From Methylophilus sp. QUAN (lineage in GTDB: Bacteria; Pseudomonadota; Gammaproteobacteria; Burkholderiales; Methylophilaceae): a stretch of 64,000 bases of DNA. The position numbers and the translations under genes are program-made. How positions within the stretch are numbered: the first letter of the stretch is position 1; every line of letters begins with the position of its first letter. Positions 8,269 to 12,498 of this stretch are shown one piece after another. Below the pieces are notes generated by a model. It searched no databases. It was not told where the DNA came from and saw nothing but the letters and a program-made list of their open reading frames with translations. The stretch covers positions 620,001 through 684,000 of the forward strand of contig NZ_JADKYT010000002.1 in assembly GCF_015354445.1 (NCBI RefSeq), in the 5' to 3' direction.

Positions 8269-9021
8269 ATGGCGAGAGATGCTTTGACAGACAACGAACT
8301 GTTGCTCAAGAAAACGGCCCGCAGACGGTTGGTAGGTGCGATCACGCTGGTGGTGCTGATGTTAATCATATTGCCCTTCGTGCTCAAGGACAGAGTAGTC
8401 GAATCCAGCCACGATAACGTAGAAATTACAGTCGTCAACCGCCAGGCTAATCGCGAGCCTATTCTTGAATTGCCTGACGATGAAGTGGTGTTGGACAATG
8501 AGGCCGCCCCGGCTGCCAACACCCCAGAAACCAACGCCCAGGAAGTGCCTGAGGCTAACATTGAAGAGGCTACTGCTACTGCCCCCGCAGCCCCTGCCGC
8601 ACCGCAAAAATTGGCCAAGGCAGAGCCAGCCAAACCTGTTATCGCACCAACCCCGGTGAAACCAGTTGAACCCAAAGTTGAACCCAAAGTTGAACCCAAA
8701 GTTGAACCCAAAGTTGAACCCAAAGTTGAACCCAAAGTTGCGGCAGCCAAGGCTGAGGCTAAAGAAGAGTCTGTTGCATCCGATAAAAAAACGGGTAAGT
8801 TCTTTGTGCAGTTTGGTGTGTTTTCTGACCCGAAGAACCTGGAAAACCTGCAAGGCAAGCTGAAGCAGGCTGGGTTTGAATCGGCCACTGAAAAAGTGGA
8901 TGCGGCTGGCCAGAAATTACGCTTGCGCACACGTACTTATGCCACACGTAATGATGCCGCTGCCGCATTGAAAAAACTGGAAGCGGCCGGGTTTAGCGGT
9001 ATTGTCGCCAGCAAGTCCTGA
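8269..9021 (+). CDS. SPOR-domain membrane protein, DedD-like
   Basis: Predicted division-associated, septal peptidoglycan-binding protein. 250 aa: a short basic cytoplasmic N-terminus, one membrane helix (about residues 21-39), a Pro/Glu/Ala/Lys-rich periplasmic linker with six exact VEPK units, and a C-terminal SPOR domain (about 180-250: FFVQFGVFSDPKNLENL and LRLRTRTYATRNDAAAAL). Its place between folC and cvpA is the standard dedD site in Proteobacteria. The SPOR domain is clear; the exact dedD name is by position. Confidence 0.88.
   Translation: MARDALTDNELLLKKTARRRLVGAITLVVLMLIILPFVLKDRVVESSHDNVEITVVNRQANREPILELPDDEVVLDNEAAPAANTPETNAQEVPEANIEEATATAPAAPAAPQKLAKAEPAKPVIAPTPVKPVEPKVEPKVEPKVEPKVEPKVEPKVAAAKAEAKEESVASDKKTGKFFVQFGVFSDPKNLENLQGKLKQAGFESATEKVDAAGQKLRLRTRTYATRNDAAAALKKLEAAGFSGIVASKS
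8665..8736 (+). repeat. Six exact 12-bp tandem repeats (VEPK x6)
   Basis: GTTGAACCCAAA occurs six times in a row without any base change, inside the linker of the SPOR protein. Identity at the DNA level, including third codon positions, indicates recent slippage expansion. Confidence 0.97.
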
Positions 9022-9579: not shown

Positions 9580-11115
9580 ATGTGTGGAATTATCGGTATT
9601 GTAGGCAAGAACCCGGTGAATCAGTTGTTGTATGACGGATTGCTGGTATTACAGCACCGTGGTCAGGATGCCGCTGGTATCGTCACTTGTGATGGCAACA
9701 CTTTCCACATGCACAAAAACAATGGCCTGGTGAAAGATGTATTTCACACCCGCCATATGCGTAACCTGATCGGCAATGTGGGTATTGCCCATGTACGTTA
9801 TCCGACCGCCGGCTCCTCCAGCGCGGCTGAAGCGCAGCCGTTCTACGTAAACTCACCATTTGGTATTGTGTTGGGCCATAACGGTAACTTGACCAATTCC
9901 GAGCAACTCAAGTCTGAAATGTTCAGGCAAGATTTACGTCACATCAATACCAACTCTGATTCTGAAGTGTTGTTGAACGTGTTGGCACATGAAATCGAAA
10001 GCACCTCTAAAAATGCCTTGCTTAACAGTGACATGGTGTTTGATGCCGTGGCTGGTGTGCACAGACGTTGTAAAGGTGCTTATGCCGTGGTGGCGATGAT
10101 CGCCAACTTCGGTTTGCTGGCCTTCCGTGATCCACATGGTATTCGTCCTTTGGTGATCGGCAAGCAGGAGACTGACAAGGGCACCGAATATATTGTCGCC
10201 TCTGAAAGCGTGGCGCTGGATGTATTGGGCTTTACCATGTTGCGTGATGTGGAGCCTGGTGAAGCGGTATTTATCGATATGGACGGTAACCTGTTCAGCC
10301 GTCAATGTGCGACCAATCCAAAACTGACTTCCTGTATTTTTGAATACGTTTACCTGGCACGTCCTGACTCTGTGATTGACGGTGTATCGGTATACCAGAC
10401 ACGCCTGGATATGGGTACATTGCTGGCTGAAAAAATCAAGCGTGAATGGGCCGATAAACAGATTGATGTGGTGATTCCTATCCCGGACACCAGCCGTCCA
10501 AGTGCATTGCAGTTGGGTATTGCTTTGGGCCTGGATTACCGTGAAGGCTTTATCAAAAACCGTTATATCGGCCGTACTTTTATTATGCCTGGTCAGGCAT
10601 TGCGTAAAAAATCCGTACGCCAGAAGCTGAACCCAATCGGCATTGAGTTCAAAGGCAAGAATGTGCTGCTGGTCGATGACTCGATTGTGCGTGGCACGAC
10701 TTCGCAACAAATCGTGCAAATGGCCCGCGATGCCGGTGCGAACAAGGTTTACTTCGCTTCTGCGGCGCCACCGGTGCGTTACCCGAATGTGTATGGCATT
10801 GATATGCCTAGCCGTCATGAGTTGTTGGCGACCAATCGTACTGATGAGGAAATTTGTGCTGAAATTGGTGCTGATGCGCTGATTTACCAGGACCTGGATG
10901 CCTTGCGTGAAAGCATCACCAAGTCTAATCCGCACATGACTGAGTTTGACTGCAGCTGCTTTGATGGTAAATATGTCACTGGCGATATTGATGCGGCTTA
11001 TTTGAACCGCATTGAGTCTGCGCGCAGTGATATGAATAAAAAGCAATTGCCGCCAAATTCGACCACGCAATTGGATTTAAACCTGTTATCTACAGACCTG
11101 GTAGGGGCCGATTAG
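9580..11115 (+). CDS. purF: Amidophosphoribosyltransferase
   Basis: First committed step of purine synthesis: PRPP plus glutamine to phosphoribosylamine. 511 aa. Cys2 in [11 protein letters not shown] is the Ntn glutaminase nucleophile, with no propeptide, as in the E. coli type. The type I phosphoribosyltransferase domain has the PRPP loop [17 protein letters not shown], and [14 protein letters not shown] is typical. Unlike its upstream neighbours it is followed by a regulated leader rather than by a coupled gene. Confidence 0.98.
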
Positions 11116-11118
11116 AAG

Positions 11119-11147
11119 TTGACAGGCGCCGGCAAAAGGCGTTTAAT
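11119..11147 (+). promoter_or_regulatory. Sigma70 promoter of the metZ riboswitch transcript
   Basis: TTGACA at 11119-11124 matches the -35 consensus exactly; TTTAAT at 11142-11147 is the -10 box after a 17-bp spacer. The expected start, about 7 bases on, is at the first bases of the riboswitch aptamer. Confidence 0.78.
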
Positions 11148-11151
11148 GAAA

Positions 11152-11230
11152 TTGCGCTGATTTGAGTGGCGAACTTTAAACGAAGCCAAACTCAGCTTGC
11201 GAGCGCATTATAAATACCGCTAAAGCGAGA
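11152..11230 (+). ncRNA. SAM-II (SAM-alpha) riboswitch aptamer
   Basis: P1 is TGCGCT (11153-11158) with AGCGCA (11202-11207). The 5' arm is followed by GATTTG and the 3' arm is preceded by GCTTGCG, then comes ATAAAT and CGCTAAA (11218-11224); all are hallmarks of the SAM-II pseudoknot class (Rfam RF00521). The P1 loop holds an extra hairpin (GAGT/ACTC plus GGC/GCC, 11164-11194), allowed at the variable site of this class. The downstream gene, metZ, makes homocysteine, the usual target. Call made by eye from motif match, not from a covariance search. Confidence 0.88.
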
Positions 11231-11239
11231 GCCCCAAAG

Positions 11240-11275
11240 ACCCGTTTTAGCGCAATGCTGAAACGGGTTTTTTAT
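11240..11275 (+). terminator. Intrinsic terminator, expression platform of the SAM-II riboswitch
   Basis: ACCCGTTT (11240-11247) pairs with AAACGGGT (11261-11268), with AGC/GCT extending inward and six T residues at the end. The 5' arm overlaps CGTTTTAGCG (11243-11252), which can instead pair over 10 bp with CGCTAAAGCG (11218-11227) of the aptamer. SAM binding should free the terminator; its absence should favour the alternative pairing and read-through. Confidence 0.85.
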
Positions 11276-11310
11276 TGCCGTCCGTATCCCGGACAGAAGA
11301 TTGAGGAAAC

Positions 11311-12498
11311 ATGAACGACCAATACCATTTGGAAACGCTGGCGGTGCGCGCTGGTACACTCACCACCGAGTTTGGTGAAAACTCTGAAGCCTTGTTTTTA
11401 AACTCCAGTTTTCGCTTTAATAGTGCGGCACAGGCGGCAGCGCGTTTTGGTGGCACCGAGCCAGGTAATATTTACTCGCGTTTTACCAATCCGACGGTCA
11501 CCATGTTTCAGGATAAACTGGCTGCCTTGGAAGGGGCCGAGCAGTGCGTGGCGACTGCCAGTGGCATGTCTGCGATCCTGGCTTGCATTATGGGCATTTG
11601 CAGCGCAGGCGACCATATTGTGGCCTCCCGCAGCATTTTTGGCACCACCGTGCAGCTGTTTACCAATATTCTCAAACGCTGGGGGCTGGAAGTGACCCTG
11701 GTGTCACTCACCGATGTGGAGGCATGGAAAGCCGCTGCCAAGCCAAATACAAAATTATTTTTTGCAGAAACCCCTTCTAACCCACTGACTGAAGTGGGCG
11801 ACATTGCCAGGCTGGCAGAAGTGGCGCATGCCGCAGGTGCCTACCTCGCGGTGGATAACTGCTTTTGTACACCGGCCTTGCAACAGCCACTTAAGTTGGG
11901 GGCGGATATTGTGATTCATTCTGCGACCAAGTATATCGATGGCCAGGGCAGAGTGCTGGGCGGTGCGGTGCTGGGTAGCAAAGCATTGATTGAGCCGGTC
12001 TATGGCTTCTTGCGTACGGCAGGTGTCACCATGAGCGCCTTTAATGCCTGGGTGTTCGTCAAGGGGCTGGAAACCTTGCAAGTGCGTATGGAGGCCCATG
12101 CCGCGCGTGCACTGGCATTGGCGCAGTGGCTGGAGCAGCAGCCTGGCGTTGAGCGCGTCTATTACCCGGGTTTACCGTCACATCCGCAATATGCGCTGGC
12201 ACAAAAACAGCAGCGCTTGGGTGGCGGCATTGTCACCTTTGAGGTTAAACCAAAGGCGGGCCAAACGGCGCAAGAGGCGGCATGGGCGTTAATTGATGCC
12301 ACGCGCCTGATTTCGATCACGGCCAACCTGGGTGATGCAAAATCTACCATCACGCATCCGGCAACGACCACGCATAGTCGCGTGAGCGCCGAAGCCAGGG
12401 TTGAGGCTGGCATTAAAGATAATCTGGTCAGGATTGCTGTTGGCCTGGAACATGTAGAGGACCTGAAGGCAGACTTGCAGCTGTTGACGCGCGCTTAA
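11311..12498 (+). CDS. metZ: O-succinylhomoserine sulfhydrylase
   Basis: PLP enzyme of the Cys/Met metabolism family that makes homocysteine from O-succinylhomoserine and sulfide. 395 aa. Signatures: YSRFTNPTVTMF, the SGMSAILA cofactor loop, DNCFCTPALQQPL, and the PLP lysine in HSATKYIDGQGRVLGG. GAGGAAAC directly before the ATG is a good ribosome binding site. Position after purF is standard for metZ. The substrate (succinyl rather than acetyl) is inferred from family and neighbourhood. Expression is predicted to be shut by SAM through the riboswitch and terminator upstream. Confidence 0.95.
   Translation: MNDQYHLETLAVRAGTLTTEFGENSEALFLNSSFRFNSAAQAAARFGGTEPGNIYSRFTNPTVTMFQDKLAALEGAEQCVATASGMSAILACIMGICSAGDHIVASRSIFGTTVQLFTNILKRWGLEVTLVSLTDVEAWKAAAKPNTKLFFAETPSNPLTEVGDIARLAEVAHAAGAYLAVDNCFCTPALQQPLKLGADIVIHSATKYIDGQGRVLGGAVLGSKALIEPVYGFLRTAGVTMSAFNAWVFVKGLETLQVRMEAHAARALALAQWLEQQPGVERVYYPGLPSHPQYALAQKQQRLGGGIVTFEVKPKAGQTAQEAAWALIDATRLISITANLGDAKSTITHPATTTHSRVSAEARVEAGIKDNLVRIAVGLEHVEDLKADLQLLTRA

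Follow-up and report, generated by a model that had tools for sequence, protein, structure and literature searches.

S-Adenosylmethionine (SAM)-binding RNAs of the SAM-II class were defined by Corbino 2005 (PMC1273637) as the metA element. The accessible text of that paper places promoters just before P1 and putative terminators in many representatives, and Bordetella bronchiseptica is listed there. SAM-II with terminators was stated for the beta-proteobacteria by Barrick and Breaker 2007, as far as the accessible text goes. Leyn 2014 (PMC4239095) reports, in the part accessible, SAM_alpha only in Rhizobiales and Rhodobacterales and describes a separate "metXZ" element, a pseudoknot with an alternative structure and a terminator, in 35 beta-proteobacterial genomes. 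This element precedes metZ in three Methylophilales and in Nitrosospira and Thiobacillus; according to the same text, its conserved region 2 pairs with region 6 and region 3 is left without a partner. In S. meliloti, predicted termination at the metZ SAM-II yields the sRNA RZ, and the level of this sRNA rose under high SAM, according to the accessible part of PMC9373788. An earlier note on the DNA studied here had regarded beta-proteobacterial or transcription-level SAM-II control as uncommon, a view that these accounts of 2005, 2007 and 2014 contradict.

We analyzed a stretch of 64,000 nt, here called the window, from a methanol-consuming bacterium. Between purF (9580-11115) and metZ (11311-12498) lie 195 bases, in which a promoter is followed by a SAM-II-like aptamer and then by an intrinsic terminator (Table 1). 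From comparison of the sequence with its relatives, we consider it highly probable that the leader of metZ acts as a SAM-II riboswitch, reducing transcription of the gene at high SAM by means of termination; we infer SAM as the ligand, sufficiently fast binding and the size of the effect. The promoter that the earlier note had seen at the start of the aptamer was confirmed, with 11 of 12 consensus bases in the two hexamers at 17-nt spacing, and transcription is expected to begin at the first base of P1 or a few bases off. An automatic promoter scan missed it because the scan requires an A at position 2 of the -10 hexamer. Among the 21 genera of the window's family (Methylophilaceae) compared, 20 have TTGAC at most 45 nt upstream of P1. 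Only 3 nt separate the end of the purF stop codon from the -35 hexamer (11113-11124), so that readthrough from purF may likewise be halted or metered at the riboswitch terminator. Two further features were seen in the neighborhood: a small inverted repeat, GTCCG/CGGAC, at 11280-11294, downstream of the terminator and before the Shine-Dalgarno sequence, with similar arms in some genus-mates (L011, L012), and a predicted protein of 250 aa with a run of repeated VEPK units (8269-9021).

Table 1. Features of the metZ leader and gene (positions in the window)
Feature	Position	Strand	Basis or remark
Sigma-70-type promoter, -35 TTGACA 11119-11124, -10 TTTAAT 11142-11147, spacer 17 nt	11119..11147	+	sequence
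P1 5' strand TGCGCT	11153..11158	+	sequence and alignment
L1 GAUUUGA	11159..11165	+	invariant in 44 aligned aptamers
Long loop with accessory hairpin GAGU-GGC ... GCC-AA-ACUC	11164..11193	+	folding; last two L1 bases included
P2 pseudoknot 5' strand GCUUGCG	11195..11201	+	identical in 44 aligned aptamers except for one C-to-A at 11196
P1 3' strand AGCGCA	11202..11207	+	sequence and alignment
A-rich linker UUAUAAAUAC, from P1 to P2 3' strand	11208..11217	+	sequence and alignment
P2 3' strand CGCUAAAGC(G), also the antiterminator 5' strand	11218..11227	+	alignment and folding
Intrinsic terminator, stem 11236-11251/11257-11272, loop GCAAT 11252-11256, U-run 11268-11273	11236..11273	+	-22.0 kcal/mol
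Shine-Dalgarno sequence GAGGA of metZ	11303..11307	+	sequence; outside aptamer and terminator
metZ, O-succinylhomoserine sulfhydrylase, 395 aa	11311..12498	+	NF006003 690 bits (cut-off 522); TIGR01325 586 bits (cut-off 510)

No Rfam family exceeded its cut-off anywhere in the window. A significant RF00521 (SAM_alpha) match had been set as a test in the earlier note, its absence to count as refutation, and the sequence alone did not give one: with relaxed limits the model aligned end to end (11144-11240, model positions 1 to 79; GAUUUG and GCUAAA conserved) at 19.7 bits against a gathering cut-off of 36 (E 0.024 for 301 bases), a score that is a cut-off of the model and not a biochemical feature of the class. 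The alignment suggests that the low score results from the insert in the P1 loop, where 31 bases stand against 9 model positions. RF01726 (SAM-II long loop) gave 16.5 bits against a cut-off of 44 at 11148-11233 (E 1.1). When the whole genome was searched with RF00521, the metZ leader was second among 26 sub-threshold matches; since matches at E up to 10 were found in all 14 control genomes, this ranking has no weight alone.

Homologues were more informative. Similar leaders were recovered by DNA similarity from 58 of 81 genomes, the leader's own included (E up to 0.1, weak and partial matches counted). Four of 40 loci, short-loop relatives, scored above the RF00521 cut-off, two in one set of 20 (L054, 45.2 bits; L039, 36.9 bits, a member of the window's family) and two in another set of 20 (L151, 39.2 bits; L106, 38.8 bits), and 36 were below. 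At E up to 0.001, a covariance model built from 44 aligned aptamers of beta-proteobacterial leaders with the P1 pairs only (R1) gave matches in 281 of 399 genomes from the order. RF00521 matched 177 of the 399 at that limit and 69 over its cut-off; the curated cut-off thus misses the family in most of the order's genomes in which R1 finds it (69/399 versus 281/399). In a sample of the phylum, R1 matched 49 and RF00521 83 of 398 genomes, 69 of the latter over cut-off. Outside the order, 20 of 28 R1 places coincided with RF00521 places, 8 of them over the RF00521 cut-off, and six shared places in another class reached 60 to 67 bits with RF00521 but only 29 to 39 bits with R1. R1 is the narrower model: of the 72 other-class genomes with an RF00521 match, 17 were also matched by R1. 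The picture suggested by these scores is that of one family with intermediates. The idea that the low Rfam score marks a false positive was rejected, as the core is near-invariant and the cut-off is exceeded by some short-loop leaders that precede the same gene. Thus, the SAM-II identity proposed in the earlier note is supported by the homologues despite the sub-cut-off score.

The motifs on which that proposal was based (P1, GATTTG at 11159-11164, GCTTGCG, ATAAAT at 11210-11215 and GCTAAA at 11219-11224) can all be read directly in the sequence. P1 has 6 bp and encloses L1 GAUUUG. Two of its pairs covary among the 44 aligned aptamers, the window included: the inner pair 11158-11202 is CG in 21, UG in 12 and UA in 11, and the outer pair is kept in 35, whereas the middle four do not vary at all. 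Common to the 44 aptamers is the order GCGCYGAUUUGA, a loop of variable length, CAGCUUGC (with one C-to-A), RGCGC, a linker AAAU and GCUAAAGCG. The only change in GCUAAAGCG is a U-to-A in L038. In this member of the family (L038:1498-1583), GCAAAA replaces GCUAAA and the match between aptamer and terminator is gone; it is possibly a decaying switch. The P2 strands are complementary over 7 pairs, which in this register leave U 11221 and A 11222 without a partner, and are so nearly invariant in the relatives that covariation neither backs nor rejects P2. In SAM-II itself, P2 was probed by disruptive and compensatory mutations, as described in the accessible text of Corbino 2005 (PMC1273637). RNAalifold on the 44 aligned aptamers found P1 and a 2-bp mini-hairpin in GCUAAAGC; as expected, the pseudoknot was absent from its result. 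The fold of 11150-11275 had a z score of -4.58 (0/200 shuffles as good), mostly contributed by the terminator, and that of 11150-11235 alone a z score of -1.22 (22/200 shuffles as good), pseudoknots lying outside the folding model.

The genes downstream point to the methionine pathway. A gene matching one of ten methionine-gene references follows 127 of 138 leaders, a set that includes the leaders recruited with RF00521 and repeated places: 74 metZ of the window type, 16 metZ of the alpha type, 16 metX, 8 metA, 6 metH, 3 metN-like, 2 metK, 1 metF and 1 cystathionine gamma-synthase-family gene, with 11 lacking a reference match. Nine reference families were checked against curated models, metN being under its cut-off and metH truncated where its locus stops; for the alpha-type metZ, the reference (L068) is named solely by its 48% identity to the MetZ of the window. 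All 54 leaders from the window's family are followed by metZ, some places having been fetched twice. Among the matches listed for 96 candidate leaders in 119 loci from named genomes were 23 metZ, 31 metX, 5 metH, 4 metN and 3 cystathionine gamma-synthase-family genes, with 30 leaders unmatched; 3 metH matches and 1 metN match were weak. The 144 loci (L009 to L152) include six without a leader in the scripted search (L050, L064, L065, L076, L148 and L152), and in the locus counts certain genomic places, such as that of L009 and L098, appear twice. In L050 (480-660), two tandem SAM-II-like aptamers, the first with a terminator-like hairpin of its own, lie upstream of a start judged by eye to resemble that of metZ. 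Very similar SAM-II-like leaders occur in L061 and L062 (G062 contig 65, about 1 kb apart) and in L115, with a hairpin followed by TTTCTG and no clean T-run; none of these three has a downstream methionine gene by the ten references.

An aptamer related to SAM-II could have changed its specificity and bind another ligand of the methionine cycle, such as S-adenosylhomocysteine (SAH) or methionine, since sequence is no sure guide to specificity, and the accessible text of Leyn 2014 (PMC4239095) presents the metXZ element without a named ligand. We regard this as improbable: the RF00521 consensus positions GAUUUG and GCUAAA are unchanged, the targets belong to the methionine pathway, like those of the leaders recruited with RF00521, and elsewhere in the genome of the window lies an SAH riboswitch over its cut-off (48.8 bits; L153, G000 contig 1, 420443-420525).

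We then turn from the predicted ligand to the predicted output. The terminator (Table 1) was not caught by a simple automatic scan of the window; a hairpin followed by a T-run is present in 130 of the 138 related leaders, the alpha set and repeated places included. As the earlier note had described, the strand 11218-11227, which is also the P2 3' strand, can pair with 11243-11252. This antiterminator has 10 contiguous pairs, one of them G-U, and a predicted energy of -11.8 kcal/mol, and none of 500 shuffled versions of the downstream stretch matched the aptamer strand as well. Both terminator and antiterminator need 11243-11251, so the two pairings exclude each other; the antiterminator takes only the P2 3' strand and leaves P1 intact. 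In the proposed mechanism, transcription would begin beside P1. With SAM bound, the P2 pseudoknot would hold 11218-11226, the terminator 11236-11273 could fold freely, and RNA polymerase would stop about 40 bases before metZ. Without SAM, 11218-11227 would pair with 11243-11252 once the latter is transcribed, the 5' arm of the terminator would be blocked and the polymerase would read through into metZ. Along the growing transcript, the minimum-energy folds first consisted of P1 and the loop hairpin; P1 was then combined with the antiterminator at the lengths tested from 11250 to 11264, and with the terminator from 11268 on. In the full leader at equilibrium, the terminator fold (-42.6 kcal/mol) is preferred to the antiterminator fold (-30.1 kcal/mol) by about 12 kcal/mol, pseudoknot energy excluded, and the switch must therefore be kinetic. 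A mainly translational riboswitch that hides the metZ Shine-Dalgarno sequence, the mode proposed for the compact Sargasso Sea SAM-II in the accessible text of PMC9373788, has next to no probability here: that sequence lies about 30 nt past the terminator and is in neither structure, and a translation-level mechanism was rejected on this ground.

If the hairpin served termination alone, its two arms would be expected to evolve alike. In 18 of 21 family genera, each represented by one leader, the aptamer strand and the 5' arm of the terminator match over at least 9 contiguous pairs, and in none of these 18 did more than 10 of 500 dinucleotide shuffles do as well; the match is lost in L057, L038 and L039. 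Over seven positions of the 5' arm, 16 comparable genera read TTTTAGC (13 genera) or TTTTGGC (3 genera), an A-to-G change that still pairs with the aptamer U, whereas the 3' arm varies in the same genera by up to 1.85 bits per column. A frozen 5' arm beside a drifting 3' arm is not expected of a terminator serving termination alone. This comparison omits 5 of the 21 genera, whose 3' arm was unreadable by pattern and whose 5' arms are TTTTAGC (three), CGTTAGC and ATTTAGC. The 21-genus set was recruited with a query that contains the terminator, which favors conserved leaders but covers both arms alike. Of the 24 family genera in that search, g4, g16 and g24 are without a match and stand outside the 21, with weak R1 matches in g16.

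The same data bear on the reading of the hairpin as a constitutive terminator, for example of purF, with a leader that acts on metZ by RNA stability only or not at all. No other terminator was seen between purF and the metZ promoter, the hairpin is present in the full-length leader fold, and for the S. meliloti metA terminator downstream of a SAM-II, SAM dependence was not predicted according to the accessible text of PMC9373788. However, 18 of 21 genera retain a 5' arm complementary to the aptamer, beside a drifting 3' arm, and the TTGAC found before P1 in nearly all genera would be pointless ahead of a constitutive stop; we give this reading only a slight chance. The terminator/antiterminator logic of the earlier note is thus supported by the homologues and by the pattern of conservation, and the leader appears to be a clear example, resolved by evolutionary comparison, of two partners that compete for one terminator arm and both constrain it.

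Beyond the family, 4 of 18 loci from other families of the same order, 6 of 22 from the phylum sample and 8 of 26 recruited with RF00521 had a match that no more than 5% of shuffles attained. The match as a general beta-proteobacterial rule was rejected on these counts, and the other lineages must use other geometries or none. In two metK leaders from another order (L142 and L151), the change to GCUAAACAG in the aptamer strand is compensated by CUGUUUAGC in the terminator arm; since the two leaders belong to one genus, this counts as one event.

The long loop of the aptamer is variable in sequence and missing from the short-loop relatives. Across the 21 genera of the family, the loop measures 8 to 39 nt from GAUUU to CUUGC, and in 18 of them it is predicted to fold into a hairpin with GA/UC as the closing pairs. 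None of 19 loci from other families of the same order (L106, L108 to L125) has the hairpin, their loops being 8 to 19 nt long. For 13 of the 18 predicted hairpins, at most 5 of 100 mononucleotide shuffles folded as well, and support for the hairpin is therefore good yet uneven. The inserted helix could tune the rate at which the pseudoknot closes.

How does the leader compare with the systems described before? With SAM-II (RF00521) it shares P1, the P2 strands, GAUUUG, GCUAAA, a promoter before P1, a terminator after P2 and methionine genes as targets; it differs by the expanded loop stretch with its extra hairpin and by the sub-cut-off score. SAM-II long loop (RF01726; Weinberg 2010) resembles it by name as a longer-loop SAM-II, but the window is far below the cut-off of that model, and the family is listed, as far as the accessible text goes, for Bacteroidetes and marine sequences. 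The SAM-II of S. meliloti metZ agrees in gene name, in the order of SAM-II and terminator and in termination on SAM, which is predicted in the accessible text of PMC9373788; it is alpha-proteobacterial, and the comparison with it is one of description.

Another counterpart is the metXZ element of Leyn 2014, whose reported features recur here: a position upstream of metX or metZ in beta-proteobacteria, pseudoknot strands and a downstream terminator. In the accessible text it is reported as new and distinct from SAM_alpha, with the ligand unnamed. As antiterminator, its authors guessed regions 3 and 4, whereas the window would use the last conserved strand (GCUAAAGCG). Our guess is that regions 1 to 6 are GCGCY, GAUUUGA, CAGCUUGCG, RGCGC, AAAU and GCUAAAGCG in this order. 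If so, the true P2 would be region 3 with region 6, which could explain why SAM-II went unrecognized. In a comparison by description rather than with the published alignment, metXZ is most likely SAM-II, and an RNA that entered the literature with no ligand would thereby gain one open to test. A connection of metXZ to a riboswitch was not found beyond Leyn 2014 in a search that left most subscription journals outside, and the link of metXZ with SAM-II may already be in print elsewhere. We see an even chance for the wider view, in which metXZ is SAM-II throughout and the Methylophilaceae have a long-loop subclass, with a helix between L1 and P2 that is variable in sequence and kept in structure, and with a platform of shared strands, one strand being common to pseudoknot and antiterminator and one terminator arm to antiterminator and terminator. 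The mechanism is known in kind, and the long-loop form and the metXZ identity are modest additions to it.
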